This document shows, piece after piece, positions 498 through 57,072 of a DNA stretch of 64,000 nucleotides (position 1 is its first letter; the number at the start of each line of letters is the position of its first letter). The DNA comes from Enterobacter ludwigii (GTDB taxonomy: Bacteria; Pseudomonadota; Gammaproteobacteria; Enterobacterales; Enterobacteriaceae). A program made the translations under genes and the position numbers. Location of the stretch: the NCBI GenBank assembly GCA_900068845.1, contig CEFQ01000001.1:392410-456409 (forward strand), given 5' to 3'. A model generated the notes under the pieces. That model was not told the DNA's origin. It saw only the letters and a program-made list of their open reading frames with translations, and searched no databases.

Positions 498-1526
498 ATG
501 GCACACATTGTAACCCTAAATCCCCCTGTCAGAGAAGATTGGTTGCAGCAACTAGCTGATGTTGTGACCGAACCTGCTGAATTACTGCAACTTTTAGCTC
601 TTGATCAGCACGCAGATCTGGCTGAAGGTGCGGATGCGCGCAAGCTTTTCGCTTTGCGCGTTCCTCGCGCCTTCATCTCTCGCATGAAAATAGGTGATGC
701 GACAGACCCCTTGCTGCTGCAAGTACTGACCAGCCGTCAGGAATTTATAGATGCGCCAGGTTATAGCACCGATCCGCTGGATGAACAAAGCAGTGTCGTG
801 CCGGGTTTACTGCATAAGTATAGAAACCGTGCGCTGCTACTGGTAAAAGGCGGTTGTGCTGTCAATTGCCGCTACTGTTTCCGCCGCCATTTTCCGTATC
901 AGGATAACCCGGGCAATAAGCGTAACTGGCAAGCCGCCATCGATTATATCGCCGCGCATCCGGAACTGGATGAGATCATCTTCTCCGGCGGCGACCCGCT
1001 GATGGCGAAAGATCATGAATTGGCGTGGCTGGTGGCCTCGCTGGAAAAAATCCCCCATCTGAAACGCCTGCGCATCCACAGCCGCTTGCCGGTGGTGATC
1101 CCGGCGCGTATCACTGAAAGCTTGTGTCAGATTCTGGCAGACACACGTCTTCAGGTTCTGATGGTGAGCCATATCAATCATGCGCAAGAGATTGATGACG
1201 AGCTGCGTTATGGCATGCAGATGCTGAAGCGGGCGGGCGTTACGCTGCTCAATCAGAGCGTGCTGCTGCGCGGGGTGAATGATGATGCGCAGGCGCTGGC
1301 GAATCTCAGCAATGCGTTATTCGATGCGGGCATTTTGCCCTACTACCTGCATGTGCTGGATAAAGTGCAAGGCGCGGCGCACTTCTTTGTCTCGGATGAG
1401 GAAGCTCGCGGATTAGTGCGTCAGCTACTGGCGATGGTTTCAGGTTATATGGTACCGAAACTGGCGCGGGAAATCGGCGGAGAGCCAAGCAAGACGCCGC
1501 TGGATTTGCAGCTGCGTCAGGAATAA
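498..1526 (+). CDS. epmB: EF-P beta-lysylation protein EpmB (lysine 2,3-aminomutase-like radical SAM enzyme)
   Basis: EpmB (YjeK) converts alpha-lysine to (R)-beta-lysine, which EpmA attaches to EF-P Lys34. The 342-residue protein has the radical-SAM cluster motif CxxxCxxC at C120, C124 and C127 ([12 protein letters not shown]), then the SGGDPL glycine-rich SAM motif and the lysine-aminomutase core [12 protein letters not shown]. Length equals the E. coli enzyme. It faces away from efp, the substrate gene, as in E. coli. No strong Shine-Dalgarno sequence precedes the ATG at 498, but the N-terminus MAHIVTLN matches the family. A bidirectional terminator follows the stop directly. Confidence 0.97.
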
Positions 1527-1552
1527 AAAAAGCCGCAAAAGCGGCTTTTTTT
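1524..1552. terminator. Bidirectional terminator between epmB and yjeI
   Basis: Arms AGCCGC and GCGGCT around AAAA, flanked by an A-run on the left and a T-run on the right, so the hairpin can end transcription of the convergent epmB and yjeI. Confidence 0.9.
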
Positions 1553-1563
1553 AAGGCTGCGCC

Positions 1564-1911
1564 TTAAGGGCACTTATACACCTGGCCGGTCATTTTGCTG
1601 TCGAGCGGCGCGAAAGCTGACAGCAGATTTTGCGTTGGGCTGGTGGCGCCATAAATCACGTTGCCGCCCATTTCTGCCGCGCGGTTGCGCAGGTCGTTAG
1701 CCGCGCCACGCAATGAACTGCCTTCACCGCCTGAACCGCTCAGCCAGTTGCTCTGTGAGCCAGTAAGCGTTCCCAGAAGCTGACATTGACTCGCGGGTTG
1801 TTGGTCGACGAAGGTCACACGTTCGCCGCCAGCACTCAATTGATTGGAGCTGCTACAGCCCGCCAGCAGTAACGTTCCGACTGCAAGACCGAGCAAGAGG
1901 TTAATCCGCAT
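1564..1911 (-). CDS. yjeI: YjeI-type DUF4156 lipoprotein
   Basis: Small predicted outer-membrane lipoprotein of unknown function. The N-terminus MRINLLLGLAVGTLLLAGCSSS is a lipoprotein signal with lipobox LLAGC; the cysteine is at residue 18. The mature part (about 97 residues) resembles DUF4156 proteins: VTFVDQQPASQCQLLGTL, then a Gly/Ser stretch, then LRNRAAEMGGNVIYG. The start at 1911 is preferred over one 12 bases upstream because GGGGA lies about six bases before it. It sits between epmB and groL as yjeI does in E. coli; yjeJ is absent here. Confidence 0.85.
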   Translation of the reverse strand: MRINLLLGLAVGTLLLAGCSSSNQLSAGGERVTFVDQQPASQCQLLGTLTGSQSNWLSGSGGEGSSLRGAANDLRNRAAEMGGNVIYGATSPTQNLLSAFAPLDSKMTGQVYKCP

Positions 1912-2049
1912 TGTAATCCCCATTTATTATCATCAGTGTCGGGCGGCAGCGTAGCAGAAAAGCGCACTTTTTTTCTGAACATTCATTGCCCTAAACCCGT
2001 AAAGCCGAAGTATTGCGCCCTTACTTATACCCTGTTCCCCAGCAAAAGA

Positions 2050-2082
2050 AAAACCCCCGACCGTTTCCGATCGGGGGTTTTC
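2050..2082 (-). terminator. Terminator of groS-groL
   Basis: Perfect arms CCCCCGA/TCGGGGG with A-run and T-run on the two sides, 27 bases past the groL stop. Confidence 0.9.
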
Positions 2083-2108
2083 CAGATGACTTAAGCAGTC
2101 AGGGGCAA

Positions 2109-3773
<1,665 letters not shown>

Positions 3774-3807
3774 TTAAATTCGTTTCGTTCAGTGAATTAC
3801 GCGTAAA

Positions 3808-4101
3808 TTACGCTTCAACTACTGCAAGGATGTCGCTTTCGGAGATGATCAGAACTTCTTCGTTGTCGATTTTCTCGGTTTTAGCACCGTAGCCTTCGCT
3901 GAAAATCACCAGATCACCTACTTGCACGTCCAATGGCTTAACTTCACCGTTTTCCAGGATGCGGCCTTTGCCGACAGCCAGGACTTCACCGCGGGTAGAT
4001 TTACCAGCAGCTGAACCGGTCAGCACGATGCCGCCCGCTGATTTAGCTTCAACTTCTTTACGCTTGACGATGACGCGATCGTGCAATGGACGAATTTTCA
4101 T
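3808..4101 (-). CDS. groS: Co-chaperonin GroES
   Basis: The 97-residue co-chaperonin caps the GroEL ring. Sequence [18 protein letters not shown], the mobile loop with [14 protein letters not shown], and [13 protein letters not shown] at the end are typical. The start at 4101 is chosen over an upstream in-frame ATG because AAAGGAGAG lies just before it and it matches all GroES N-termini. It is transcribed from the sigma-32-type promoter at 4185-4212. Confidence 0.98.
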
Positions 4102-17049: not shown

Positions 17050-18189
17050 GTGAACATAATACCGATTCGAGGTGCGTCCCAGTGGACCGCGCTGGAATTC
17101 TTTGCGGGTATCGGACTGGCCAGAGCTGGAATGGAACAAGCGGGAATTAAGACTGTTTGGGCTAACGATTATGACCTGAACAAAAAATCAATGTATGAAG
17201 GTCATTGGAAATCTCACGAGCTTTTGCTTGCAAACATTCATGCTCTGAAAGGCGAAGACTTACCATCTGCAGATGTAGCTTGGGCTTCCTCACCCTGCAC
17301 GGATCTCAGTCTGGCAGGAAAGCGTGTTGGGCTGAGAGGAGGCCGTGAATCATCCGCCTTTTTTGGTTTTACTGACTTGATTGCAGGTATGTGCCACAGG
17401 CGACCAGAAGTACTCATTCTTGAAAACGTCATAGGTCTTGCCTCCTCTCATAACAGAGAAGATTTGAGAGCTGCGGTAAAGGAGTTTAATGCTCTGGGCT
17501 ATGCCGTGGATGCTATCACGCTTGATGCTCGACGTTTTGTGCCACAGTCTCGGCCCCGCCTTTTTCTGATCGGAGCAAAAAATCCGATTGATGGAGGTGA
17601 ACAGGATACTTGCCTAAGACCGGATTGGCTTTCTTGGTTGCACAAAGATCCAGAAGTACGAACGTTTATGATGCCTTTACCCAAAGCTCCTGATCTTTTG
17701 AGCCAGGGCCTCACACTCGAAATCGAGGCCATGTCAGATAGTGATCCGCGTTGGTGGACTGCTGATAAAGTGGCACTTTTTAAGGAGTCGATGGCAGCGG
17801 TTCAGCGTGAAAGATTAGAACATTTTGTAGCTTTGAAGAGCATAACCGCACGCACTGCCTATCGTCGTACTCGTAATGGCATTCCAGTATGGGAAATGAG
17901 AGCTGAAGATATTTCCGGATGTTTACGCACGCCGAGAGGTGGCTCATCCAAGCAGGCTGTTGTAGTCATGGGCCAAGATTCGCTAAAAATACGGTGGATG
18001 ACCGGTTTGGAATACTCACGTCTGATGGGCGCAGGCTGGTACACCCTGGAAAATTTGCGTGACTCTCAAATTCAATATGGATTTGGTGATGCTGTTGCTG
18101 TCCCTGTTGTAGGCTGGGTTGCCAAGCATATGATTCTGCCTCACCTTGAAGCGGCAAAGATATCACAGGGAATAAAAGTGAATGAGTAA
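17050..18189 (+). CDS. DNA (cytosine-5) methyltransferase of a type II restriction-modification system
   Basis: Transfers methyl from SAM to C5 of cytosine in a specific site and protects it from the partner nuclease. The 379 residues contain motif I ALEFFAGIGLARAG, motif IV SPCTDLSLAG with the catalytic cysteine, motif VI ILENVIG, motif VIII VPQSRPRLFLIG and motif X YGFGDAVAVPVVGW. The target-recognition region (about residues 190-310) is short. The start is a GTG at 17050 with GGGAGAG six bases upstream. It overlaps the nuclease gene by 8 bases, so the two are translated together. Specificity cannot be read from sequence. Confidence 0.93.
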   Translation: MNIIPIRGASQWTALEFFAGIGLARAGMEQAGIKTVWANDYDLNKKSMYEGHWKSHELLLANIHALKGEDLPSADVAWASSPCTDLSLAGKRVGLRGGRESSAFFGFTDLIAGMCHRRPEVLILENVIGLASSHNREDLRAAVKEFNALGYAVDAITLDARRFVPQSRPRLFLIGAKNPIDGGEQDTCLRPDWLSWLHKDPEVRTFMMPLPKAPDLLSQGLTLEIEAMSDSDPRWWTADKVALFKESMAAVQRERLEHFVALKSITARTAYRRTRNGIPVWEMRAEDISGCLRTPRGGSSKQAVVVMGQDSLKIRWMTGLEYSRLMGAGWYTLENLRDSQIQYGFGDAVAVPVVGWVAKHMILPHLEAAKISQGIKVNE

Positions 18190-19174
18190 ATTGAGTTCCA
18201 GTGAAGCATACCTCGCAGCAGCAAAATCGTGGTACGAAGGTGAACGAGCAAAAAGTGGCTCGATCAATACTAACGTGATGAATGCGGGGCTAATTGTCTC
18301 CCGTATGATGGCCGATGGCATGCCTATCACTGACGAAAGATTGTACAGTGAGGGGAAGAGCCAAGTGCGAGGGCTCAGCGGACCGACGATATCGAAAATC
18401 TTGGAACAGAATGGCGAGACTCGCCTTTTCACCCGAGAAGGAGGACGCACTTCTCGGGGGACCATTTTTCTTGCTGCCGCTTTTCGGGATGTGCTCAACA
18501 ACACATATGCTTTAGTTAGCGAACCAATCGATGAAAAAATGACTTCTAACCAGCTTGAAGCGTTTTTCACGCAATGTGTACGTTTAGATTACTTTGATAA
18601 GCAAAGAATTACGGTTGAACTGGACTACAGCAAACCCGTTTCTTCCGTAGTCAGCGATATTCTGAAGGCAGCTGCAGAGCGTTCTGACAAACCCACGGGT
18701 GCAGTATTACAGCATCTTATTGGTGCTAAACTACAGCTGCGTTTTCCCGATGTTAAAATCGGTAATGACAGAGCGAATGCTGCTGATCTGCACACTGATC
18801 GGGAGGGTGATTTCCAGGTGGGTACAACCGCATTCCATGTTACTACCGCTCCTATGGAGAAGTTAATTTCCCGCTGCGCTGAAAATAAGCGTGCAGGTTA
18901 TAGGCCTGTTATCCTAACACTTGAAAGCAAAGTTATTGCTGCGCGCCAGATGGCCGATAACGTTGGTATGTCAGAGCAAATTGCCGTCCAGGCAGCAGAA
19001 ACCTTCATCGGAAATAATATTGAAGAGATTGCTATCTATGACGGCGATAAAATCCGTGAGGGTCTGGCAAGACTTATACGGACTTATAACTCCCGTATAA
19101 ATGCTATAGAGATCGACAAGTCTCTTATGATTGATGAACCTCGCTGGATCGTTAACATTCTCTCCAGTTCCTGA
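18182..19174 (+). CDS. DUF4928-type restriction endonuclease
   Basis: A 330-residue protein whose pattern (start MSKLSSSEAYLAAAKSWYEGER, middle VLQHLIGAKLQLRFPDVKIGNDRAN, then DREGDFQVGTTAFHVTTAP) matches the DUF4928 family that accompanies C5 methyltransferases. The segment D..DFQVGTTAFHV could be a PD-(D/E)XK-like core in which the usual lysine is not obvious. The start ATG overlaps the methyltransferase stop, indicating one transcript. It would cut the unmethylated site recognised by the partner. Family assignment is from memory and reasonably secure; the active site is not. Confidence 0.82.
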   Translation: MSKLSSSEAYLAAAKSWYEGERAKSGSINTNVMNAGLIVSRMMADGMPITDERLYSEGKSQVRGLSGPTISKILEQNGETRLFTREGGRTSRGTIFLAAAFRDVLNNTYALVSEPIDEKMTSNQLEAFFTQCVRLDYFDKQRITVELDYSKPVSSVVSDILKAAAERSDKPTGAVLQHLIGAKLQLRFPDVKIGNDRANAADLHTDREGDFQVGTTAFHVTTAPMEKLISRCAENKRAGYRPVILTLESKVIAARQMADNVGMSEQIAVQAAETFIGNNIEEIAIYDGDKIREGLARLIRTYNSRINAIEIDKSLMIDEPRWIVNILSSS

Positions 19175-23735: not shown

Positions 23736-25208
23736 ATGATATTGGATATTAAATACGATTCTCAAACGATACCACTGAGATCTTCGCTTGGCAGGCAGTT
23801 TTCGATTTTCGACATTGACTCACTTACTCTTGTTATAGGAAAAAATGGATCTGGAAAAACCGAGCTTTTAAAAAGCATAGCCTCAGAAATAAGCAGTTCA
23901 GGATTTAATGATTTTGGAAGTAAGTGTGAGATTAATTTTGATAATGGTGATGAAAAAGAAAAGTTAAGATGGGGGTGTGTATATTACACTCCAGTACCTT
24001 ATCAACCTGAGTTTAAAAATAAAAAAAGGTTTGCAAATGCATCATTAATAGATAGAAAATCTATATTAACAGAGGGGTTGGATGAGCAAAAAGAGATAAT
24101 TGAGGATTTTGGAATAGAGGTGAACTTTAAGGCCGTTGCAGGCGTTAATATCAGACCGATCCTTGGTAGCATAATTTCCACTGCAGTTGCAAACTTGTCG
24201 CTAAAAACAAGGCCGGGTTGTTATTTTTTTTCTAAATTTAAATCATTTAATCAATACGTGGAAATTATAAGGGATCATAACTCTTTATTAGAAAACTTTG
24301 ATGAACATAGTCGGTTACGCTCTAAAATAAAAGGCGAGGCTCAGGAGGAAATAATAAAATGGCTGAGTAGTAACTTTAGCAAGTATCAAATTATTGCTTT
24401 TTTCATCCTGCTGAGCACCTTCGTAAGGGGAATTAATAGCACTAAAAACAAAAGGGCATTAAAATTATTTGTACTATTTTTTGGTGAGGAAAGTGAGTCC
24501 AGGAAACTTATAAAGCCAAAGGATTATGATGATTTTACTGCTGAGCACCACAAAATAACAGAATTCCTTTATGAATGTAGAGATAGTTATGACTATGATT
24601 GGTTAAATGATTTAAGTATAGATCTAAAAAAACATTCCCACATAAAACATTTGCATGATGGACTCTTGGATAGATATTTTAAATTAAGATTCTCCAGTAT
24701 GAGTTCTGGGGAGTTGGCTGTAATCAATCAGCTGACTTCTATAGCTGAAAAAATAAATGAATTAAAAGATTTAGGTTGTCAAAGGATATTATTGTTAATA
24801 GACGAAGGAGATGCATTTCTACATTTGGAGTGGCAAAGACTCTATATTTTTCAACTAAATAAATTACTTGGAAAAATAAAATTAAAGTGCAATATTGATT
24901 GTCTTCAAGTAATAATGGCTACTCACTCACCATTGCTTGCGACAGATGTTCCCAAAGAATACGTATTTTCTTTAGATAAGGAAAAAAAACCTAAGTTTGC
25001 TTTCGCTTCACCAATGCATATGTTATTTAATGATTCTTTCGGAACAGCAACCATTGGGGAATTTGCAACTCAAAAGATTAATGAAGCCTATATCCACTTT
25101 TCAAATGGACAACAAAGTGAAAGTGATTACATTATTCTAAAGTGTATTGACAGTGAAGTTCTTAAGCAAGAGTTTGAGCGTCAATTTGATATAGGGCTGA
25201 ATGAGTGA
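23736..25208 (+). CDS. AAA/ABC-type ATPase of a Septu-like two-gene defence module
   Basis: A 490-residue ATPase with Walker A GKNGSGKT (35-42), the ABC-like signature FSSMSSGELA, Walker B RILLLIDEGDAFLH and a following ATHSPLLATDVP switch. This layout matches the AAA_15/AAA_21 ATPases called PtuA in Septu and Septu-like modules, where the ATPase activates an HNH nuclease. The next gene is an HNH nuclease overlapping by 4 bases. The DNA is markedly AT-rich compared with the ICE backbone, so the pair was acquired as cargo. It lacks an adjacent reverse transcriptase, so it is not a retron. Confidence 0.82.
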   Translation: MILDIKYDSQTIPLRSSLGRQFSIFDIDSLTLVIGKNGSGKTELLKSIASEISSSGFNDFGSKCEINFDNGDEKEKLRWGCVYYTPVPYQPEFKNKKRFANASLIDRKSILTEGLDEQKEIIEDFGIEVNFKAVAGVNIRPILGSIISTAVANLSLKTRPGCYFFSKFKSFNQYVEIIRDHNSLLENFDEHSRLRSKIKGEAQEEIIKWLSSNFSKYQIIAFFILLSTFVRGINSTKNKRALKLFVLFFGEESESRKLIKPKDYDDFTAEHHKITEFLYECRDSYDYDWLNDLSIDLKKHSHIKHLHDGLLDRYFKLRFSSMSSGELAVINQLTSIAEKINELKDLGCQRILLLIDEGDAFLHLEWQRLYIFQLNKLLGKIKLKCNIDCLQVIMATHSPLLATDVPKEYVFSLDKEKKPKFAFASPMHMLFNDSFGTATIGEFATQKINEAYIHFSNGQQSESDYIILKCIDSEVLKQEFERQFDIGLNE

Positions 25209-26110
25209 TAATTTCTATGCCAAGTAATTGGAAGGCTATTGAGCCTCAACACTTAACGTATATTAATAATATTTTATTAAAATATTTTCGTGCGTGCGAT
25301 GTTTATTGTGGCCCACCCAATTACACTTATTTCTTTTTGAAGCAAACTCAAGCGATGATAACTTCATGCTCTTTAGATGATTACAAAAAAAGCATTGAGA
25401 TTCTTAAAAGTGAAATTCTAATGCGAGATGATACTTATTTTGAAAATCGCCTTATAAGTGACTTAAAGGAAATCATAAATTATGATAAATTCTCTGACAA
25501 ACTAAAACCCTATAATGCATACTCTTTGTGTGCAAACTCAAAACTTAAGACATGTCCATACTGCAATCACGCATATTCAATTACAACTGATGAAACAGGG
25601 CGCGGGTTTAGGCCTTCTTTAGATCATTTTTTTGATAAGTCGCGCTATCCACATTTAGGGTTGTCATTGTATAATCTTATCCCATCATGCTCTAGCTGTA
25701 ATTCAAGTCTAAAGAACACCTTTGATTTCCATGAAAAGGACTATCTTCATCCATTTTTTGATAATGAAAAAATTCAATTTAAGTTGTCTGCTTTAAAAAA
25801 AATCCTTCCGGAGGATATTGTCAACTCCCCATTAAATGAAATGAAAATATCAGTGATAACCTCAGGGAGTAAAGCTAGAAATTCTGAAGGGGTTTTCCTT
25901 ATTGAGGAGAGGTATCAGTTTTTCATTAAAGAGGCTAAAGCCTTTGCGTTGGCAAAAATAGATTTTGATGAGCAGATAAAGAGGCATGGTTTATATATAT
26001 CAAGGAACATGAATGAGAGCGTATCACTTCGATTTGACAAAAGAAATTATAAGAATGAGATGCTGGGGCGTTTATTTAAAGATTTGCAAATACAATTCAC
26101 TCTAAATTAA
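25205..26110 (+). CDS. HNH endonuclease of the Septu-like module (PtuB-like)
   Basis: The 301-residue protein has a zinc-supported HNH core: CPYC (C117, C120), DHFFDKSRYPH with the catalytic DH at 140-141, then LYNLIPSCSSCNSSLKN giving the N and a second CxxC pair (162, 165). This spacing is that of PtuB-type HNH proteins. An upstream GTG overlaps the ATPase stop; an ATG 12 bases further (MPSNWKAIEPQ) is an equally possible start. The C-terminal 130 residues show no motif. The predicted role is cutting DNA when the partner ATPase senses infection. Its stop overlaps the stop of the convergent integrase-like gene. Confidence 0.82.
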   Translation: MIISMPSNWKAIEPQHLTYINNILLKYFRACDVYCGPPNYTYFFLKQTQAMITSCSLDDYKKSIEILKSEILMRDDTYFENRLISDLKEIINYDKFSDKLKPYNAYSLCANSKLKTCPYCNHAYSITTDETGRGFRPSLDHFFDKSRYPHLGLSLYNLIPSCSSCNSSLKNTFDFHEKDYLHPFFDNEKIQFKLSALKKILPEDIVNSPLNEMKISVITSGSKARNSEGVFLIEERYQFFIKEAKAFALAKIDFDEQIKRHGLYISRNMNESVSLRFDKRNYKNEMLGRLFKDLQIQFTLN

Positions 26111-28613: not shown

Positions 28614-28781
28614 AACTACCATCTGATAATATTTTTTAAAAAGTCGGAGTGAACATTTCAAATTGATCTCCGATTTGATTTCAAAAGAGGCGATTTAAAT
28701 CAGCACATCAACCAAATGCTTAAGTTCTCACTTTCTTTGCCGATAACAAATAAACGCACTTGGGGATTAGGAAGGGAAATA

Positions 28782-29522
28782 ATGAAGGACGTTTCAAAAT
28801 ACAAGAAATCTTTAGATATGGCTAAGTTCTATGTATATGCCTTTTATGACATGGACGATGAGTTCAAAAAGCCTTTTTACATTGGGAAAGGAAAGTCAGA
28901 ACGTTGCCTTGACCATATAAAACGTCCCGACGACTCTCCGAAGTCAGAACGCATTAAAGCGCTCTTGGAGCGTAAGAGTCTGGGGATTGATATTCTTCGC
29001 CACGGCATGGATGAGCCAACAGCCAAACTTGTTGAAGCAACATGTATTGATCTCTTGGGTGTTGGAGAACTGACTAATAAAGTTCGTGGAAGCAGCTCTC
29101 TGATGGGGCGAATCACGCTTGATGAACTACAACATTTACTACTTAAAGAAGAGACCGAAATCGCTCATGAACACGCCGGGCTCGCTTTTCTTCTCAATAG
29201 CACCTATAAGTCAGGCATGAGCCCACTAGAATTATATGAGTCTACACGTGGGGTTTGGGCAAACATTCCTAAAGACGATAACCTTAAATTTGCTTATGCA
29301 ACTTATGGCGGGCTCATTATGGAAGTCTACGAAATTCATAGTTGGGTGAAGGCAGGTATTCAACAATATTTCACTCGTGATCTAGATATTCCTGCAGATA
29401 CGAATCGTTTTGAATTTGTTGGGCGAATTGCAGCTAAAGAAGTTCGAGAATTGTACGTTGGAAAACTGATAAAAAAGCCGCGTAGCCACGGCAGTCCCTT
29501 TGTAAAAGTTGGTGTTGTCTGA
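28782..29522 (+). CDS. GIY-YIG nuclease-domain protein (LEM3-like subfamily)
   Basis: The 246-residue protein has a GIY-YIG domain at the N-terminus: FYVYAFYD then KPFYIGKGKSERCLDHI, with R (ERC), and a later E in VEATCIDLLG. The arrangement resembles the LEM-3-like/COG3680 branch, in which the first motif is xVYxFxD and the second YIGKGxGxR. The remaining 130 residues have no known domain. The start at 28782 (MKDVSKYKKS) has GAAGGGA upstream; the longer frame start lacks one. It may cut nucleic acid as a stand-alone defence or homing enzyme; the target is unknown. Confidence 0.75.
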   Translation: MKDVSKYKKSLDMAKFYVYAFYDMDDEFKKPFYIGKGKSERCLDHIKRPDDSPKSERIKALLERKSLGIDILRHGMDEPTAKLVEATCIDLLGVGELTNKVRGSSSLMGRITLDELQHLLLKEETEIAHEHAGLAFLLNSTYKSGMSPLELYESTRGVWANIPKDDNLKFAYATYGGLIMEVYEIHSWVKAGIQQYFTRDLDIPADTNRFEFVGRIAAKEVRELYVGKLIKKPRSHGSPFVKVGVV

Positions 29523-41892: not shown

Positions 41893-42135
41893 TTAACTGG
41901 CGAACATCCAGATGCAGACGATCAGTAAAGCCACAGAACGGATAACAAATCGGGCAAGCGCGGCATCCCGAACTTTGGTATTTGCCCAGCCATGCCAGAC
42001 ATCTACCGCCGCCCATGCTGCCCAGAGAAACAGCACGCACAGTAGTAGCCCAACGGACACCAGGTACAGAACGCTAATATCGATGTTGCCGGATGCCGTT
42101 TTAAACGCGTTGATCTGCGCGGCAGTCATCGCCAT
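41893..42135 (-). CDS. TIGR03758-family membrane protein (DUF3262)
   Basis: An 80-residue protein with two membrane segments (ISVLYLVSVGLLLCVLFLWAAWAAV, FVIRSVALLIVCIWMF), the size and pattern of the TIGR03758 family. It overlaps the RAQPRD gene by 10 bases and precedes TIGR03745 by 46 bases, the conserved order in these ICEs. Possibly a pilin-like component. Confidence 0.88.
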   Translation of the reverse strand: MAMTAAQINAFKTASGNIDISVLYLVSVGLLLCVLFLWAAWAAVDVWHGWANTKVRDAALARFVIRSVALLIVCIWMFAS

Positions 42136-42434
42136 AGCGGACGGCCTCGCGTGTAGTCACCGCTGACCTTGCCGTAATCCAGCGGCTGCGCGCGGGAAGG
42201 CTGCGTGTAGCGGTCAATGCCAGCACGCATGGTGTTGAGGTCTTCGTTGGCTTTCTTGTAGTCGAACAGGTAGCGGCGGCGGTTATTGGGGTCAGACTGC
42301 GCGGCCACGGTGCGGGCACGGTCGAGAGAGAGCTGGACTTGGTCGAGTAGACGTTGGGTGGTGGCGAGTTCGTCAAACTCATTTGCAAAACATATATTTG
42401 AAACTGCGAGCACACTGAATATAAAGCATTTCAT
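42126..42434 (-). CDS. RAQPRD-family ICE protein
   Basis: A 102-residue exported protein (signal MKCFIFSVLAVSNICFA), helical middle (LDQVQLSLDRARTVAAQSDPNNRRRYLFDY) and the family motif as SRAQPLDYGKVSGDYTRGRP, where RAQPRD is RAQPLD. It is the first gene of the second half of the transfer operon, next to the inserted cargo pair; its ribosome site is weak. Confidence 0.87.
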   Translation of the reverse strand: MKCFIFSVLAVSNICFANEFDELATTQRLLDQVQLSLDRARTVAAQSDPNNRRRYLFDYKKANEDLNTMRAGIDRYTQPSRAQPLDYGKVSGDYTRGRPLWR

Positions 42435-42586: not shown

Positions 42587-44806
42587 TTAACTGACTAACT
42601 TGCTGTTAATTGCCAACATAAAGCCAGCGAGTTCACCTTTGATAGGTGGTTCGATATTTAAAGTTTTTTGGATTAGATCCACATAATGCTCTTTCCTAAG
42701 TTGTAACTTACCTGTGGCTAAAGCCGCAGCGAATTCTAATGAGGCATACCCGAATGGATGCTCATGCCTCGAGAAAATTTTATATAAAAATTCACTCATC
42801 AACATGCTTAAGTCAGCATTAGACCTGTAATCTAACTCTGACGGCAAACTAGCTCTTAGTATACAAGCTTGAAGAATGTCATCATTAAATCGAAGGAAGT
42901 TCTCAGGAGATAGAACCACGGATTGATAATTACTAGGACTCAAGCATAAGTCTTGCTCCGTATATTCTCTTGCGGCTTGAAGAACTGAGGAAATAGTCAT
43001 CAAAACTACAGACTGCTTAATTTTTGATATTTCACTATCTAATTTTTTATCAAAGAAAACAAAGCCAGAGGTTAATTCAAGATTGCCCCCATTTGTTCTA
43101 GGTAAAAGCCTGTTAAACGAGGATGCTATGACTTCTTCAAGCTGGTCCATTATCTCGTTGACTTCATCTTCTTCTTGAGGATCTTCAGATAACTTTGGTT
43201 TAGTTTGAACTTCAGCAAGATACTCTGGTAGAGCATCCCAAGCAGCAGAGTTAATATCCGGCCCCAGTGGTAATACATTCCAGACGGAAAAGTTGTAATC
43301 CCTATCTGTAGCGTTCTTTATCAAAAATAGACGAAGTTTTTTCCAAGCACTGTTGCTTTGAGGTATTCCTACTCCTACCAAAAAATGTCTAGGAATAACA
43401 TAATCTTCAAACTCTCTGAGATCTCTGCTAATTTGCCGTAATTCACCACCATCTCCACAAAATGCCGAAACAATAAGCACCCCATTGCAGTCTTTCAATG
43501 TATCTTCATTTAACTGTGATGATTCTAATATTAATATATCAGAGCTGTTTTTTCTAATCTCATCAATAATTAACTTTACCTTTTCTGCAAGATGATGAGA
43601 TGCACCATCATTTTTGAAAACGATAAGATTTACAGAGGAGGATAGTGACCACTTTAATTCCTTTTCAAGCCACTCATTGAAATTATCGCATGCGAGTAAA
43701 TTCTCGGCCCTAAGGCTTATTAATGGTGTTTTGTTAATGGCATCTAATCGTCCATTTATATCATTAACACCATCAATAGCAAAAGTATCGAGAACATCCT
43801 TTAATGCACTAGGCCTGTGTTTATAGCTAATAGTTATCTGTTTTGGGGGTTTTGCTTTATAAGTAAACTGCTCACCTACAAGCTCTATCTCAGTTTCATA
43901 ATTATACGATGAATTAACTTTATGCAAAAAATCACTATCTTTCCTAAGCGTTACTAAGGTTAAACATAAATCTTTTCTTTGCTCTATATCTATTAAGGTA
44001 ATAATCCTACTGTTTTTAAAACCTTTATCGAGCAATATGCTAGCCATACTTCCGGATGTTGAAGCGGAAATGATTGCCACGTCAAGCTCAGCTGGGCGTG
44101 ACAATTTCTCAATTCCTTCATAAGAGTGAAAGTTTTTAATGGTGGCTTTCGAATTTGAAAAATCTAAAGCCTCTCTCACTAGAGAGTAGATTCCCATGGA
44201 ATCGATATAAACTGAATTTATTGATGACCATGAAATTTGAGGGTGGACTAAGCAAAGTCCTCTTCCTACAAATTGAATTTCAGCTTCATTACAAGCAATT
44301 TCTTTAGTTTGTATAAAAAGGTTGAGGATCTTTCCTGAAGGATGTTTAAATTTATGACCAGAGGGAGCATTGTGTAAAACATCATTCTTTTCCGCCAGTT
44401 CTAAAATACCTTTTCTGTAAAATTCAGAAAGATCTTTGTTGGAGGGGACAAAAAAATCATTCTTTGATGATAAGGATTTATTCATCTCAAACCCATCGCA
44501 ATTCATCTGAATGAAATAGAAAAACTTAGTGTATATGTGTTTTTTTCTGCTTAATCGAGTGAATAATATTTCTTTTTGATTGTTGTCATTCCAAGCATTA
44601 TTAATGTCTTCGCTAAGAGATTGCGTGTAATAAACTACTATAGCATCAGGAATGGTGTCGCATTCTGTGAGGGCTAATGTAATCGCAGAGAAAAAGTCTG
44701 TTGTGTCCTTCAGGCATGAGTCAGAAAGATAAACACAAAGTAGATCTATAGTATGAGAGGATATTTTCTTTTGAAAATTAAAATAGAAGAGATTGTCCAC
44801 TTTCAT
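42587..44806 (-). CDS. 739-residue protein with a phosphoribosyltransferase-like region, second gene of a cargo pair
   Basis: No signal peptide or membrane segment. Residues about 145-275 have the order of a type I phosphoribosyltransferase: FKHPSGKILNLFIQTKEI, then VYIDSMGIYSLVREAL, then DVAIISASTSGSMASILLDKG, where AIISASTSG would be the PRPP-binding loop. The acidic pair usual in that loop is not seen, so catalysis is doubtful. Residues 380-500 hold a second alpha/beta unit (IDEIRKNSSDILILESSQ, NGVLIVSAFCGDGGEL), and the end is helical. It overlaps the preceding GHKL ATPase gene by 29 bases, so the two act together. AT-rich relative to its neighbours. The fold assignment is tentative. Confidence 0.6.
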   Translation of the reverse strand: MKVDNLFYFNFQKKISSHTIDLLCVYLSDSCLKDTTDFFSAITLALTECDTIPDAIVVYYTQSLSEDINNAWNDNNQKEILFTRLSRKKHIYTKFFYFIQMNCDGFEMNKSLSSKNDFFVPSNKDLSEFYRKGILELAEKNDVLHNAPSGHKFKHPSGKILNLFIQTKEIACNEAEIQFVGRGLCLVHPQISWSSINSVYIDSMGIYSLVREALDFSNSKATIKNFHSYEGIEKLSRPAELDVAIISASTSGSMASILLDKGFKNSRIITLIDIEQRKDLCLTLVTLRKDSDFLHKVNSSYNYETEIELVGEQFTYKAKPPKQITISYKHRPSALKDVLDTFAIDGVNDINGRLDAINKTPLISLRAENLLACDNFNEWLEKELKWSLSSSVNLIVFKNDGASHHLAEKVKLIIDEIRKNSSDILILESSQLNEDTLKDCNGVLIVSAFCGDGGELRQISRDLREFEDYVIPRHFLVGVGIPQSNSAWKKLRLFLIKNATDRDYNFSVWNVLPLGPDINSAAWDALPEYLAEVQTKPKLSEDPQEEDEVNEIMDQLEEVIASSFNRLLPRTNGGNLELTSGFVFFDKKLDSEISKIKQSVVLMTISSVLQAAREYTEQDLCLSPSNYQSVVLSPENFLRFNDDILQACILRASLPSELDYRSNADLSMLMSEFLYKIFSRHEHPFGYASLEFAAALATGKLQLRKEHYVDLIQKTLNIEPPIKGELAGFMLAINSKLVS

Positions 44807-45959
44807 TCCTTAAAGGCACTAAAATTGACACGACTGTTCCAACGGCGAGTTCAAGGTTATCTTGAGACCAACAATCAAAGTTCATTAACTCATTATCGTT
44901 AAATAGCTTACTCTGGTTATCGAATCTATTACCTTTAAAACAATTGAATATACAGTGCCTCCCAGTCCTTATTCTAATCAAACCACCAATTCTTTGTAGC
45001 TGGGATAATACTGTAGGGTATCCATTCCCAGCCCCACTTTGATTTTTAGAGGTGAAATTCTTCTTTAGGCAAGTCAGAAGAGCTTCTTTTTCATCACTTC
45101 TATTTCCTTCGTAAAATTTCTTACCAAATGCACGACCAGTTATACCTGGCCCTGTATCAAAAAAACTCAACTGAATACATTTAACTTTTTCTATCCCTGA
45201 TTTAGCTTCAGTAATGGAATTGAAATACTCGGTCAATCTTTCATTGGAATCGTAATCATTTTCAAGGACAAAAGATTGTAAGTTAATGTAGGAAGCGATC
45301 ATACCTTCAACATGACTACTAAGCCGCATACCATTTGTATCTACCCTTGCATGCTCCTGAGTGTTTTTAAATAACTCACAAGTAAAGACACCAAAACCAC
45401 GTAGAAGCTCTGCATCAAGTTTATGAAAATCATCGACTGCTATAAATTTCAATATATCAGTCAAGGATTTACTCATAGCGGAACTATTTTTTACAGCTGA
45501 AGAGTCTCGAGTTGAAAATAGCTGTGAAAGATATTGTATATCTGCCCCACTAATGCAGCACAGGTCAATTATCCTGCCTTTAACAACATTAGGATAATTT
45601 TGATTGTCAGTACTGACCATTTTATCAACTGCATATTGTAGAGCTCTCCGGCGACTTACCGAAACCCCACCTAATTTAATAGAGGTATTTAAGCGAATTG
45701 CGGTTAAAGCTGGTGCATAACTACATAGACTTTCTAGACTATTATCAAGATTACTTCCTCCATAAAGATGAAGTGTTTTATCTTGAGAATTTCTAGCAAT
45801 AGTGACTAAAGCTTGTAACCGAGATGCATCCCTAATTGCACCATGTCTCTTATTAATTTCTTCAATTGAAATCCTTTGTACTACTCCCTCATTGGCTAGT
45901 CGTATTGCTTCTTCAACATCCTGAAGCGTTACCAACGATATGTCGCGAGTATTGGTCAT
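44778..45959 (-). CDS. GHKL (histidine-kinase-like) ATPase, first gene of a cargo pair
   Basis: A 393-residue protein with the three boxes of GHKL ATPases in the C-terminal half: N-box ELFKNTQEHA (195-204), G1 box DTGPGI (268-273), and G2 box GAGNGY (309-314), then LSQLQRIGGLIRIRTG. There is no phospho-acceptor histidine domain and no receiver domain, so it is not an ordinary sensor kinase; GyrB/MORC/HSP90-type ATPases and several defence ATPases share this fold. The N-terminal 180 residues resemble no domain I know. The gene is read together with the 739-residue partner. It is inserted between TIGR03747 and RAQPRD, splitting the transfer operon. Confidence 0.78.
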   Translation of the reverse strand: MTNTRDISLVTLQDVEEAIRLANEGVVQRISIEEINKRHGAIRDASRLQALVTIARNSQDKTLHLYGGSNLDNSLESLCSYAPALTAIRLNTSIKLGGVSVSRRRALQYAVDKMVSTDNQNYPNVVKGRIIDLCCISGADIQYLSQLFSTRDSSAVKNSSAMSKSLTDILKFIAVDDFHKLDAELLRGFGVFTCELFKNTQEHARVDTNGMRLSSHVEGMIASYINLQSFVLENDYDSNERLTEYFNSITEAKSGIEKVKCIQLSFFDTGPGITGRAFGKKFYEGNRSDEKEALLTCLKKNFTSKNQSGAGNGYPTVLSQLQRIGGLIRIRTGRHCIFNCFKGNRFDNQSKLFNDNELMNFDCWSQDNLELAVGTVVSILVPLRNESGQSLLF

Positions 45960-51200: not shown

Positions 51201-52148
51201 TCAGAAAATTTCTGTTAGCCTTGAATTTTCGTTTAAGTCTGATTTGAATAATCGCCATTCAGACTTGTCAATCACTGTTGAACAATATTTTTCTGCCAAG
51301 GAAAAAAATGACTTGGCGATAATATTAAGCTCAGAGATCATTTCGCTTATTTTTTCATCTTGATCCTTTCCATAAGAAAGGAAAATTGAATCCCTTTCTA
51401 GTACTTTTCCTTTAAATCTTTGAACACATGATAGAAAATTGACGTCAAACTGTGATAAAACATCATCTCTATATTCTTGTGCTATCTTCTTTCTAAAGTT
51501 AGTTAATTGATTATCTTGGAAGTATTTGCTAGCTAGCATGTTTTCTTTTTCATGCTCTGCATAATAATTCGCAGTGCCATTTAAGTAGGATAATAAACCT
51601 CCTTTGGCTTGCTCACGATCTCTAGCAACGTTGTTTAATGTATGAGTGTTTCCTGAACGTGACTTTGCAATAAAATTATCAACATTACTTTCTGTTAAAT
51701 TTTTCACTTGGATGTTGAAAGGGTAAGGAATTATGCTTGTTGACTCCACAAAATCAAACCACCAGGAATTAACTTGATCATCAGCTGGATAAGATGCTTT
51801 AAAGCAAGTCAACATTGCTTTTGCAGAATTAATAATGCAATCACTCCATGCAAAAACACATACTTTTGATATATCGCTTGGAAACATTACACATTCAGAA
51901 ATTGAATTAAGTGCGACTAGTGAATGCTGAGCCATAAATAATGATTCAAACACTCTATTCGTTTCGGAAAACGAATGATTCACATTATGCACTGTCGATT
52001 TGACGCATGGAAAAACCTCAGTGTCGATTTGATTGGGACAAGATATTGCCAAACAATGAATCCAGTTAACTGTGCCCATGAATGCAAATTCTGGACTGAA
52101 ATTTTGATTTTCTTGGATCAACCTACTTAGGAGCCATCTTTTCATCAT
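51201..52148 (-). CDS. Uncharacterised helical protein, last gene of the MBL-protease-helicase cassette
   Basis: About 315 residues, no signal peptide, no recognised motif. The sequence looks largely alpha-helical (ETNRVFESLFMAQHSLVAL, FRKKIAQEYRDDVLSQFDVNF) and contains a conserved-looking WSDCIINSAKAML and WWFDFVE. AAGGA lies before two adjacent ATGs at 52148/52145; a longer frame overlaps the helicase stop but lacks a ribosome site. It ends about 145 bases before the transfer operon. Its close coupling to the helicase gene suggests a shared complex. It does not resemble HamA (DUF1837), the usual partner of helicases in Hachiman. Confidence 0.65.
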   Translation of the reverse strand: MMKRWLLSRLIQENQNFSPEFAFMGTVNWIHCLAISCPNQIDTEVFPCVKSTVHNVNHSFSETNRVFESLFMAQHSLVALNSISECVMFPSDISKVCVFAWSDCIINSAKAMLTCFKASYPADDQVNSWWFDFVESTSIIPYPFNIQVKNLTESNVDNFIAKSRSGNTHTLNNVARDREQAKGGLLSYLNGTANYYAEHEKENMLASKYFQDNQLTNFRKKIAQEYRDDVLSQFDVNFLSCVQRFKGKVLERDSIFLSYGKDQDEKISEMISELNIIAKSFFSLAEKYCSTVIDKSEWRLFKSDLNENSRLTEIF

Positions 52149-52155
52149 ATTATCC

Positions 52156-54345
52156 TTATAAAAATTCAATGCTATTTTTTAACATGTAAAGTTCAGAACG
52201 TTTTAGATTGGGGATGTTTTCAGCTTTGTGCTTTTTAATTTTCTCCATAGCTTCATCAAAACTATCCCCTTCTTTAACGTGCCATAATTGATTCGCTTTA
52301 AGTGATAATGATATCGGAATCCCATACTCTTCAAGAGTCATTAAGGCAGGTATCGTATTCATACTTTCTACACGTGAAATGAAATATTTATAGTTGCCAG
52401 GTTGATAGCCAAACCTCTTAAATATTTCACTTTGTATATTATTGATTGCATTAATGATAAGAGGGTAGTAGTGTCCTATTATCTTCCTTCTGAAATCAAA
52501 GTTTCTTAACACGGCATCATCAATTGTAAAGTCAGCATTTTCTTCGCTGAAATATTCGAAATCCATGTCAATATTGTCTTTTAAATCCTCGTCCTTTAAT
52601 ATTGAAACTATTTTTCTTGTGAGCTGAACGTCATTTTTAATTGCACCAGAAGCAAAACTTTTAATTCTAAAGTACTTTTCAGCCATTTTATTTAAATGGC
52701 CTAATTGTGTACTTGATGGCATATTATTCCAACTCATTAATCTATGCCAAGTTTGGAAGTTGGTTATTAGATCGCGTGCAAATTCAAGCTGTTCTTCGGG
52801 AGGTATTCCAGAGTTTTTGACTAACACATCTATGCTGAGATCATTCTGTTCGAAATACTTGTTGAGCCTCCCTTTTACACTTTCAGTGTATGGTTCATCA
52901 TAATGAAGTAATAGGGAGTCATTAACATTTTCACTGTTGGAAATTATAGGAATGTCGATCTGGTTTAGGCTATCATTCGGTTTTTCACCAAAGAAGAAGA
53001 CATTACCTACAAAGTGCTCAAACATTCTACCACTTCGACCTGCTATATTATTATATGAAAATGCATCTAGCTTTTCTCTTCTGGTAATGCAATCATCATA
53101 AATCACTATATTTTTTGCGTTAGTATTAACTCCCTCAATCAAGGTTGAAGTGCAAACCAATATATTAATTTCTTTGCGATTAAATAAATCCACAAATAAA
53201 GAAGCTATTGAGCGAGGAAGTTTCGCATGATGTGAACATATGCCATTCAAAATAATATCTGACTGCGACCATTCAGGATGGAATGTATCCTTAAGCCAAC
53301 GTGAGAGATCATTTAATAAAGGTGAGTCTTTCACTTCAACCAATTCACTTATTTTTTTTGCAACTTGGCTAGCTCTCTTAGGTGACTTGCAATATATTAT
53401 TGTTTGCTGGTTATGAGATAATGATAAAACATACTTCAGATAAGTATCACGCTGTATGTCTTTTAGTTCATCACTTCCAGTAGATAACGGGAATATTTGC
53501 TCATTAGTTGCAACTGTAATAAATTCGTTTTCATCAATGTATCTGCATTTTAACTTATTAAGTGTTAAAGGATTTATTCCTTTAATATTGGGACCAAGAA
53601 GGTAAAAGAAATCACATTTATTGAGAAGTTTTTTAAATGCTATGTTAAGACGAGAACCTCTCTCATCATCAACCTTGTATGGTGATAACTTATAAAATTC
53701 ATCAACAACAAAGAAATCTATTTTAGGAAAATCCTCCTTTTCAATGACCCGCTCTTGAGTAAAAAGAAAAATGTTTCTATCAGACTGCTGCTGACTGACT
53801 TGAGTTACTATTTTATATTTTCCCTTCCCAGGTCTATCCAAAGTATATTTATGGAACTTTTTCTTGAGCTCATCAATTAATGATATGGTGGGCACGACAA
53901 TTACAATATTATCCAGAGCATCAGAAGATATTAAAGACTCTACAAGCAATGTCTTTCCGAAACTTGTTGGAGCACTTAGAATTATGCTTTGTCTTTCTTC
54001 AAGTAATTTATACACCTGAAGTTGTTTTATATGAAATACTTTATCAAAACCATCTTCGTTTTTTATCCCCGAAGATAAAACCGACTTCTTAATCGAAGAT
54101 TCTAGGCTTTCATTGAATGCTACGTAAGGATATAATCCTCTGGCTTCAACAAGCTTGTCTAAGATATGGCTATAGTCGCCAAAAATTTTCTTTTTTTCAA
54201 GGCATCGAATTAATAAGTCCTGTACTTCTTTTTCGTTCAAATGACTATTGTGTAATTCAATTAACCCTAATAAATACTCCTTTGGATTTAGGGTGTTACT
54301 TTCAAGTTCTGCTCTCAGTTTTGATACATCATATGCTTTAATCAT
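52156..54345 (-). CDS. Ski2-like superfamily 2 helicase
   Basis: The 729-residue protein has Walker A SAPTSFGKT (124-132), motif Ia VVPTISLIDEL, motif II VVDEFYKL (213-220), motif III-like LLGPNIKG, motif V LVCTSTLIEGVNT and motif VI IAGRSGRMF. The DEFY motif II and the LIEGVNT/AGRSGR pair are seen in Ski2-like helicases of phage-defence modules. No nuclease domain is fused. AAGG precedes the ATG, which overlaps the protease stop by 8 bases. Strongly AT-rich. It would move along or remodel nucleic acid; whether RNA or DNA cannot be told. Confidence 0.85.
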   Translation of the reverse strand: MIKAYDVSKLRAELESNTLNPKEYLLGLIELHNSHLNEKEVQDLLIRCLEKKKIFGDYSHILDKLVEARGLYPYVAFNESLESSIKKSVLSSGIKNEDGFDKVFHIKQLQVYKLLEERQSIILSAPTSFGKTLLVESLISSDALDNIVIVVPTISLIDELKKKFHKYTLDRPGKGKYKIVTQVSQQQSDRNIFLFTQERVIEKEDFPKIDFFVVDEFYKLSPYKVDDERGSRLNIAFKKLLNKCDFFYLLGPNIKGINPLTLNKLKCRYIDENEFITVATNEQIFPLSTGSDELKDIQRDTYLKYVLSLSHNQQTIIYCKSPKRASQVAKKISELVEVKDSPLLNDLSRWLKDTFHPEWSQSDIILNGICSHHAKLPRSIASLFVDLFNRKEINILVCTSTLIEGVNTNAKNIVIYDDCITRREKLDAFSYNNIAGRSGRMFEHFVGNVFFFGEKPNDSLNQIDIPIISNSENVNDSLLLHYDEPYTESVKGRLNKYFEQNDLSIDVLVKNSGIPPEEQLEFARDLITNFQTWHRLMSWNNMPSSTQLGHLNKMAEKYFRIKSFASGAIKNDVQLTRKIVSILKDEDLKDNIDMDFEYFSEENADFTIDDAVLRNFDFRRKIIGHYYPLIINAINNIQSEIFKRFGYQPGNYKYFISRVESMNTIPALMTLEEYGIPISLSLKANQLWHVKEGDSFDEAMEKIKKHKAENIPNLKRSELYMLKNSIEFL

Positions 54346-55789
54346 TTAATACCTTCATAAAGCTATTCATTAAATTTTCGAAATTTCCTAATGGGAATAT
54401 AAAAAGTCTAACGTTTATATCTTCTATAAATCCATGGTTATAGCAATTTATAAATTGCTTGTGATTTAAGTTCATGGAATCAATGAATTCAGATTCAAAT
54501 CGTTCCTCATTGTAATTACTTATGATGGCATCTTCATAGCAAATGAATACGGGAAGTATTATTTTATCAACGCGCTTATTTAATGGGATGCTGTTATTTC
54601 CTAAATCCTTTAGCTTCTCATATTGCGGCCAATCTTTATCAGCTTTATTAATTATAATTGCATAGCGCTCTGATAAGTTATTTAGCGTTATCATTTTTAC
54701 TAGAATGTCTGTTACTTGCTTTATAGCATCTGACGCCGAAGTATTGAAACTTGATGACCCCAGCCACAACTCTACTTTCCCTTTATTAACTACAACATGT
54801 GAGCAGCTAGGTACAACTTCATCATCAATTGAGAAAATTTTATTCACAATTGGTATGGTTTTATAATTTTTTCTGATGGCTATATGCAATAACAAATCTA
54901 GAAAAAGATTGTCATTTCTGACTTTAAAGTGTTTTTTAGCTAATTTATTTGCAGACCATCTCTTGTTTTTGTAACCTCCCCATTCATTTGAAGGTATCAC
55001 ATATTCTGCTAACCATTCACAAGCTATTTCCGAAAACTCCTCTTCATTCCATTGATTAAAGCTAAAGTTAACGCCCAACCCTTTAGTTGATGGTGTTAAA
55101 TTGTTTATTTCATGTACAACATGAAAAGGAGCTTCTGGAGTTTCCATTGGTATGTAGTCAATTTCTTCTTTTGAACTAACATCAATAGCTAATTTGGTTT
55201 TCTCTATTATTCTAGGAATAATAGACTCAAATGAAACACAGTAAAGTGTAGTGTTCTTCTGCTGGAAAAGAACAATTCCAACTATACTTGATTTGTAATA
55301 CAGTGGTGACCCTGATATACCTTGATAATTAGATATGAGGTTTTTCTTGCATTGCATTATTTCATAGCAGTAGTCGGTGCTAGATGTTGTTCTCAAATCT
55401 AAAGCGATTTCGGAATGAAATTTCGATGGGAGATTTCTCTTTTCTAATGGATAACCATATCCAAATACCTCGTCCCCTTCCTTAAGGTCACAGATCCCTA
55501 TATCAATTGATAAAGGCAAAACCCCAGGCGCACAATTGAATAGTGCAAAATCATATTTATCGTCTGAGTAAAGGTGTGTTAAAAAAATTCCATTTTGATG
55601 CGCATAATCATCTGCTGATAAATACAGGATATAACTTGCCCCATCGCACTCTTTAATAAAGTGTTCTGCTGTAATTATTATTTGAGAGGTAATGGCAAAC
55701 GCAGTAGCTCTAGATTTAATTTCTCCTGAGCTATCATACAACGTAATGATATACGAATTTACCTTGTAATCATTCTCTGTGCCATTCAT
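54338..55789 (-). CDS. Trypsin-like serine protease
   Basis: The 483-residue protein starts with a chymotrypsin-fold protease domain (1-200): His43 in IITAEHFI, Asp80 in KYDFALFNC, and Ser159 in YQGISGSPLYY form the triad, with S1 region VGIVLFQQ after it. The C-terminal 280 residues carry no known domain and have an aromatic N-terminal part (WNEEEFSEIACEWLAEYV, a possible effector-associated helical domain). No signal peptide, so it acts in the cytoplasm, as the protease of AVAST type I does. Start overlaps the MBL stop by 4 bases. Confidence 0.82.
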   Translation of the reverse strand: MNGTENDYKVNSYIITLYDSSGEIKSRATAFAITSQIIITAEHFIKECDGASYILYLSADDYAHQNGIFLTHLYSDDKYDFALFNCAPGVLPLSIDIGICDLKEGDEVFGYGYPLEKRNLPSKFHSEIALDLRTTSSTDYCYEIMQCKKNLISNYQGISGSPLYYKSSIVGIVLFQQKNTTLYCVSFESIIPRIIEKTKLAIDVSSKEEIDYIPMETPEAPFHVVHEINNLTPSTKGLGVNFSFNQWNEEEFSEIACEWLAEYVIPSNEWGGYKNKRWSANKLAKKHFKVRNDNLFLDLLLHIAIRKNYKTIPIVNKIFSIDDEVVPSCSHVVVNKGKVELWLGSSSFNTSASDAIKQVTDILVKMITLNNLSERYAIIINKADKDWPQYEKLKDLGNNSIPLNKRVDKIILPVFICYEDAIISNYNEERFESEFIDSMNLNHKQFINCYNHGFIEDINVRLFIFPLGNFENLMNSFMKVLND

Positions 55790-56928
55790 AAGGAGAGAGC
55801 TCCTTTATGATTGAAAGTTATTTTCTTATCGCCTATAGAATCAAACAAGCCATAGTCAATGTGTTCTGATTTGCTATTGAAATGAAAGTTAACCTCATCA
55901 CACTTTGAGAAATATACTATTCGAGCTAATGTTTCAATGTCTGGATGAGAGTACTTTGAATTGTCAGTACTGAATAAATAGTTCTTAGTAATAAGGCGTG
56001 AAATAAGTTCTTTGTTTAGGTTTTTTTTACTACCATGATGTGATACTTTTACTGCATCCACCTTAAGCTCAGATATTTTATTTTCATCCATCCATTCAAT
56101 GACTGTTTCGCTCGTAGTATCACCTAACATCAGTATGCTTTTTTCGTGTGCTTTTACCAAAACACATATACTGCTCTTATTTGCAAGCGACTGATCCGCG
56201 ATATATTTAGAGTTAGCAATTGAAATAAGAGTATCCTTCTCCGAAGACGAAATATACCCACTCAATTCATCATCATCGTCTGATTTCAAACTATCAATAT
56301 ATTTTTCAAAAGCTGCCGCATGCTGTTTAGTTAATGAACTGTTTTTTATTTTGTTAGTCTTTAGTTCATTATCCCAATTTGATTTTAATTTCTTAATCGT
56401 TTTTAAACTTGGGCCTATAACTGTGATGTTAAAATTTAATATATCAAAGTTATCAATTGACTCCCTACAAATGACTTTTCCATTCACAATGTCATTTACC
56501 GGGTATTTGAATTTTTTCAAAAGATAAGATAGGCCAGTGCCTTCGCTATAACCGATTTCCTGAGATTCATCAGAATCTGAATAGTATGATTCTAAACTAA
56601 CAAATTCATGCTGATTTTCATTGCTTTCATTTATGTCACACTCAAAAATTTGTTCCACACCATTAAAAAATATCCTTTCAATTTTAAGGATTTTTGGCTT
56701 TGAATGTTCTTTGTTATCGTCAATAAGCCTTATTACGCCCCCGATGTGATCATTATCTAAATGCGTAACAAACAGCGCATTAATTTGGTCTAATGAATGA
56801 ATATTTTCACACCAGAGTCCATATGATGAAGCCGTTCCTCCATCAAACAAAATGTTATTACTTCCCGAAGTAAGTAAAATACAGTCCCCATATCCTGCGG
56901 GGTGAAGTCGTACATCTAGGCTACTCAT
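55786..56928 (-). CDS. Metallo-beta-lactamase-fold hydrolase (ComEC/Rec2-like)
   Basis: The 380-residue protein opens with VRLHPAGYGDCILLTSGSNNILFDGG, the typical MBL strand pair, then the metal motif THLDNDHIGG (HxDxDH, residues 56-61), later LMLGDTTSE and VKVSHHGSKKN, and TDNSKYSHPD. HxDxDH in place of HxHxDH is the pattern of ComEC-like nucleases/hydrolases and of MBL proteins in defence loci. No membrane segments. The start at 56928 (MSSLDVRLHP) has GGAG seven bases upstream; the longer frame does not. It is the first gene of the four-gene AT-rich cassette. Confidence 0.85.
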   Translation of the reverse strand: MSSLDVRLHPAGYGDCILLTSGSNNILFDGGTASSYGLWCENIHSLDQINALFVTHLDNDHIGGVIRLIDDNKEHSKPKILKIERIFFNGVEQIFECDINESNENQHEFVSLESYYSDSDESQEIGYSEGTGLSYLLKKFKYPVNDIVNGKVICRESIDNFDILNFNITVIGPSLKTIKKLKSNWDNELKTNKIKNSSLTKQHAAAFEKYIDSLKSDDDDELSGYISSSEKDTLISIANSKYIADQSLANKSSICVLVKAHEKSILMLGDTTSETVIEWMDENKISELKVDAVKVSHHGSKKNLNKELISRLITKNYLFSTDNSKYSHPDIETLARIVYFSKCDEVNFHFNSKSEHIDYGLFDSIGDKKITFNHKGALSL

Positions 56929-57072
56929 TGCCAAGCTCCGTTGAGGTATTAGCAAAAAGTTAAGGCATTGTCATCGTTAAGTCATCTGAAAAATGATCTC
57001 ATTAGTCTTTCCTGATTTAATAATGCTCTTGTTAATTTCATTAAAAATCAATTAAATCAATCACTAAAATAG

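Follow-up and report, generated by a model that had tools for sequence, protein, structure and literature searches.

PRTase effectors are known in type III retrons (PMC12548924), and the defence protein VcSduA has a GHKL domain that precedes a nuclease (PMC12137116). A further entry, PDC-M65 of PADLOC, consists of two adjacent genes on the same strand; its status is that of a candidate only and it has no described function. The locus presented here lies in a 64,000-nucleotide stretch of Enterobacter ludwigii DNA (the window) and belongs to this last entry. Gene A (44778-45959, minus strand) encodes a predicted GHKL ATPase of 393 residues, and gene B (42587-44806, minus strand) a protein of 739 residues; the end of A overlaps the start of B by 29 bases (44778-44806). 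Lengths, strands, coordinates and overlap are exactly those of a first-pass annotation of this DNA, which had described A as fused by overlap to a PRTase-like protein: the genes do overlap, but the proteins are separate. A matches PDC-M65A over residues 34-385 (E 7e-29; profile positions 38-395 of 398) and B matches PDC-M65B over residues 5-721 (E 5.2e-66; profile positions 3-746 of 763), and the two genes have the adjacent, same-strand layout of the entry. Since both matches are nearly full length, the pair is the catalogued phage-defence candidate PDC-M65, from which we found no difference, and the locus is a further member of a catalogued but uncharacterised candidate. The annotation knew of no characterised pair of this kind. 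The literature searched likewise gave no characterised GHKL/PRTase pair, but both genes were already held by PADLOC. That literature, mostly non-subscription, also lacked the label PDC-M65, and the pair may have been validated under another name. Neither Pfam nor NCBIfam has a family for A or B, the pair has no match in PHROGs, B relatives are absent from phage records, and a search of E. coli genomes for relatives gave no match.

Plasmids, viral contigs and species genomes supplied the relatives of B. Where A is a single intact ORF (84 loci), it always precedes B on the same strand. The genes overlap in 54 of these loci, by 1-91 bases when the longest ORFs are used to set the starts and most often by 4 bases, and are separated by 0-29 bp in another 29, so that 83/84 are spaced within 30 bp, across phyla. 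The exception (L006, 6429-9923) has a 138-residue ORF between A and B, in the place expected for the N-terminal part of B. Outside the 84 are four loci in which B lies so near the end of its contig that A would not fit, and three (L034, L080 and L091) with A in two ORFs. When 398 proteobacterial genomes were searched with A, five full-length matches were found, that in the window's own genome included, each with B adjoining. The corresponding search with B gave six matches, those five and one divergent B, all with an adjoining GHKL gene. The distance matrices of A and B are correlated (r = 0.89; the highest value in 2000 permutations was 0.10). A and B are obligately linked and travel together more than chance would allow; the outcome that the annotation had named as contrary to its reading, that the two genes do not travel together in other genomes, did not occur in the genome-neighbourhood search. 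We consider it probable that the two proteins form a physical complex. A few copies are broken: B is split after its N domain in L006 and carries a frame break in another genome (G492:C2:6382-8522), and these, like the three loci with a divided A, reflect either real decay or assembly error.

The AlphaFold model of B is confident (pLDDT 90.8, pTM 0.84) and divides the protein into an N-terminal domain (1-121), two PRTase-like domains, D1 (122-330) and D2 (331-515), and a helical C-terminal domain (516-739). The modelled D2, of which residues 332-515 are encoded by 43262-43813 on the minus strand (coordinates derived from the start of B at 44806), has a type I PRTase fold. All 50 of the VIA matches listed for it are PRTases, the best of those listed being orotate PRTase 4rv4 (Z 12.9, rmsd 4.7, 178 residues aligned), and the fold is common to orotate, adenine and hypoxanthine PRTases and PyrR (Z 11-13). 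The profiles of D1 and D2 align with a score of 36.3 over 118 columns, and 60 shuffles gave at most 17.3; D1 is thus homologous to D2, and B contains a tandem duplication in which D1 is, as judged from these profiles, the diverged copy. Against the HPRT, OPRT and PRPP synthetase families the D1 and D2 profiles reached about 1% or less, and against single PRTase sequences at most 24%. Because these matches to ordinary PRTases are low, the basis for assigning D2 is its predicted fold together with a sister clade described below, and for assigning D1 its homology to D2. A PDB sequence search with the B profile gave chance-level matches only, and a Pfam scan of 63 B homologues found no family common to more than one member. 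The PRTase relationship proposed in the annotation for residues 380-500 is therefore supported by the predicted fold and that for residues 140-280 by profile homology to D2; a fold model with no such relationship, which the annotation had held would count against it, was not obtained.

Three further resemblances of B were considered. The ISASTSG loop of D1 resembles the SxSG of SIS domains, but the hhalign probability is below 1% and an SIS reading was dropped. A hairpin in D1, F-x-x-P-S-G-x-H, is no more than suggestive of the F-T-L-K-S-G-R-K-S of OPRT; the score of D1 against OPRT, 18.6, lies below the best of 60 shuffles (27.4). Membership in PRTase-CE (PF24390) was rejected, with no Pfam match at E<=1 and an hhalign probability of at most 1.1%. 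B has in common with PRTase-CE and the type III retron effectors a PRTase-type domain in a conflict system, but lacks profile similarity to PRTase-CE, and its partner is a GHKL protein where theirs is a reverse transcriptase.

The acidic pair of the PRPP loop comprises the residues that hold the ribose. In place of the usual DD-x-x-x-T-G, D2 has VSAFCGDGG: positions 447 and 448 are mostly A, S or G and in none of 77 homologues D or E, with the loop glycine, Gly453, retained in 74 of the 77. With the acidic pair gone, pseudo-PRTase is a fitter name for the PDC-M65 family than the PRTase-like of the annotation, and from its sequence B is probably not an active PRTase. B differs from type I PRTases also in its two tandem copies and its additional N- and C-terminal domains. 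B has eleven invariant residues: D202, S247 and F314 in D1, R464 in D2, and R613, R639, D642, Q646, A647, E657 and E691 in the C-terminal domain. Together with the missing acids, this distribution indicates that the conserved chemistry of B seems to sit in D1 and the C-terminal domain and not at the canonical PRPP site.

Two pairs with the two-gene layout of PDC-M65 form a sister clade. In one (G366, locus L276) a divergent B (601-2748) shares 4 bases with a GHKL gene that is also divergent, the pair spanning 601-3842. The other is on megaplasmid pHG1 of Cupriavidus necator H16 (L281; 4626-5765 and 5773-8043), where it adjoins an AVAST type 1 (Avs1) locus. The sister B proteins match the PDC-M65 B profile with a probability of 99.8% (D1 99%, D2 95%, C-terminal domain 92%) and the sister A proteins match the A profile with 99.6%, so that by profile, over the greater part of their length, the proteins are members of one family. 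PADLOC detected B of the first pair weakly and did not detect its A. Both sister B proteins carry a textbook PRPP motif in D2, FLDDVFITGARG and LIIDDVAYGSER, and retain D202 and S247 of D1; in the pHG1 protein the DD is at residues 486-487. The DD motif is support for the PRTase assignment that does not depend on the model, and the comparison suggests a loss of the acidic pair within the PDC-M65 family proper, in which the signatures of D1 and the C-terminal domain were kept. With one clade that has the pair and one that lacks it, nature offers an experiment in the passage from a nucleotide enzyme to a sensor or new effector. Neither the reading of B as a tandem pseudo-PRTase nor the sister clade with the intact motif was found described in the literature searched.

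These same residues bear on the strongest alternative, that B is still an enzyme, whose D1 or altered D2 uses different residues to transfer or hydrolyse a phosphoribosyl, glycosyl or nucleotide group and which would act as a nucleotide-depleting toxin activated by A. The invariance of D202, S247 and F314 in 77/77 relatives and the retention of the first two in a clade whose D2 still has its DD motif would fit such an enzyme, as would the PRTase effectors of type III retrons (PMC12548924). We nevertheless think it unlikely, given an acidic residue at neither of the two PRPP-loop positions in any of the 77, no similarity of B to PRTase-CE, and no known enzyme motif that could be recognised in B.

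The AlphaFold model of A is also confident (pLDDT 91.8, pTM 0.92). Behind an N-terminal alpha/beta domain (about residues 1-125), residues 127-386 of the model resemble GHKL domains; the best VIA match is SpoIIAB (Z 9.6, rmsd 3.4, 139 residues aligned), followed by histidine-kinase catalytic domains and these by gyrase. The N box (E195-L-F-K-N199), G1 box (D268-T-G-P-G272) and G2 box (G311-N-G313) are intact, as the annotation had it, and N199, D268, G270, G272, G311 and G313 are invariant in 71/71 homologues. Glu four residues before the N-box Asn is the hydrolytic residue of GHKL ATPases such as gyrase B, Hsp90 and MutL; at position 195, 65 of the 71 homologues have Glu and six have Gln. A is, on the model, a GHKL ATPase with a Bergerat fold. 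With Pfam HATPase_c the window's A has no match, and 14 of the 71 homologues match (best E 4.8e-5); a PDB sequence search with the A profile gave weak matches to CheA and histidine kinases. That A is without histidine-phosphorelay parts was also borne out, with no HisKA, HPt or REC domain in A or B (Pfam, E<=1); A thus differs from histidine kinases in having no phosphoacceptor domain or receiver partner at that threshold. From the SpoIIAB/RsbW anti-sigma kinases, which include its closest structural match, it differs in its partner and in the additional N-terminal domain of about 125 residues. The sequence of that domain gives a passing impression of STAS, but the Pfam scan of A homologues gave no STAS match. 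GHKL-type Shedu proteins (VcSduA, paraMORC3) likewise place a GHKL ATPase in a phage-defence protein (PMC12137116), but there it is fused to a PD-(D/E)xK nuclease, whereas A has a gene of its own and a PRTase-like partner.

In a second alternative A would be a machine of the gyrase B, MutL, MORC or Top6 kind that clamps DNA or chromatin, and foreign DNA would be recognised by B as its structural or regulatory subunit. In the Foldseek list for A the top places do go to gyrase B, ParE and MORC, all weakly, the N-box Glu is that of GHKL hydrolases, and in the defence protein VcSduA a GHKL domain stands before a nuclease (PMC12137116). We regard this as improbable, however, with SpoIIAB and the kinases placed above gyrase by VIA and neither A nor B having a recognised transducer, Toprim or nuclease domain.

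The pair lies between the genes for the ICE membrane protein TIGR03747 (46217-46981, minus strand, E 1e-92), at the upstream edge of the cargo site, and an ICE protein of the RAQPRD family (42126-42434, minus strand, E 6e-26), at its downstream edge; an NCBIfam search of the window places a TraD gene beyond these edges. The G+C content is about 35-37% over 43-46 kb and about 54-59% in most flanking transfer genes, in agreement with the earlier view, drawn from composition, of the pair as foreign cargo. A promoter and terminator scan gave chance-level results. In congeners of the element, the gap between TIGR03747 and RAQPRD either has almost no content (0.42-0.45 kb; L250 and L252) or is filled with different cargo of 1.6-6.8 kb. 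Two of them (L255 and L257) have a TIGR03747 97% identical to that of the window, yet carry unrelated AT-rich cargo. At the TIGR03747 edge of the gap we found PDC-S32 in L257, a relative of RTasHEPN in L255 and, in L253, a Hachiman HamAB pair, for which 9 kb of sequence did not extend to the RAQPRD end. The gap between TraD/TIGR03747 and RAQPRD has been published as defence 'GI-Hotspot 8' (PMC12629846). The annotation was thus right to place the insertion inside the transfer operon, between these two genes, but no conserved operon is broken, the site being a recurrent cargo hotspot. The variable cargo and the published hotspot make the insertion ordinary for the site and argue for defence cargo, and the pair is foreign, exchangeable cargo of the ICE. 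Another occupant of the same site, in L256 (1328-4442, minus strand), consists of genes for 837 and 193 residues without a PADLOC match and is possibly a further system.

At least four other known or candidate defence loci are present in the window. A Hachiman locus (51201-56955, minus strand) belongs to the same element and comprises the HamB helicase (52156-54345), a trypsin-like protease fused to HamA (54338-55789), which matches the PADLOC HamA model PDLC00169 end to end, and, upstream of HamA, a metallo-beta-lactamase-fold protein (55786-56955) like LmuA, Avs1a and RTasMBL; a 322-residue protein downstream had no match in Pfam, PADLOC or PHROGs. On the plus strand are an ATPase/HNH-like pair with a 4-base overlap (23736-26110), closest to PADLOC PDC-M62A/B and Septu PtuAB and in a region of 32-33% G+C (24-26 kb), a type II restriction-modification pair of cytosine methyltransferase and restriction enzyme with strong PADLOC matches (17050-19174), and a PD-T4-3-like protein (28716-29522, E 3.6e-23). 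The neighbourhoods of the relatives were counted within about 10 kb of the pair, 1.3 Mb of flanks overall. HsdM was found in 11 loci, HsdR in six, an OLD-type nuclease in five and two kinds of recombinase in five each; Qat is near the pair in L008, and in three Bacteroidota loci A begins 35 bp downstream of an HsdR-like gene. A set of 200 proteobacterial genomes, each a few Mb in size, contains some 114 HsdM, which puts the expectation for the flanks at about 0.2 and the enrichment at about 50-fold, with thresholds and hosts imperfectly matched. Most immediate neighbours of the pair were not recognised as defence genes. We consider a defence function likely.

An overlapping two-gene unit within a mobile element might also serve to stabilise the ICE as a toxin-antitoxin or addiction module, any defence being no more than a side effect; we give this little credence, the pair being far larger than usual modules and also chromosomal across phyla, after type I restriction-modification genes and amid defence genes. 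Least probable of all is that A, whose best structural match is SpoIIAB (Z 9.6), is a kinase of that type, which would phosphorylate B or some host factor as part of a signalling switch that has nothing to do with phage, as the genomic context is that of defence and no sigma-factor or STAS partner gene is conserved among the neighbours.

Given what was computed (obligate pairing, ATPase motifs, a PRTase fold, its duplication, the loss of the acidic pair and the defence context), our preferred reading, to which we assign a probability of about 0.55, is that the pair is an ATP-gated two-protein defence complex carried as ICE cargo, in which A drives a pseudo-PRTase scaffold, B. The pair would be an exchangeable anti-phage or anti-mobile-element cassette. 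A would bind B as an ATP-driven GHKL switch, and infection would change its nucleotide state or dimerisation, so that B is released or rearranged; that A gates B in this manner is, on balance, what we favour. B would be a duplicated PRTase scaffold whose PRPP chemistry was lost in the PDC-M65 family. The D1 pocket (D202, S247-A-S-T-S-G, E312-x-F314) would bind or attack a nucleotide-type ligand jointly with residues of the helical C-terminal domain (R613, R639, N641-D642, Q646, E657 and E691), although we propose only tentatively that B acts on or senses such a ligand. The most likely outcome would be that the infected cell is stopped, that is, an abortive response.

More speculatively, PDC-M65 may stand for a new biochemical class of immunity, in which a GHKL ATP switch controls a tandem PRTase-fold protein, the clade with the intact motif being a nucleotide-consuming effector and the larger clade a pseudo-enzyme, which either serves as sensor of a nucleotide signal induced by phage or works through an active site newly formed in D1 and the C-terminal domain. 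If the pair is protective, it would be, to our knowledge, the first characterised defence with a GHKL switch driving a PRTase-fold partner. The published hotspot and an element with several other defence loci make a direct phage test cheap. The genome of the window also holds a second, fragmented TIGR03747 gene (G000:C4:263439-264110), so a degraded second copy of the ICE may exist there.
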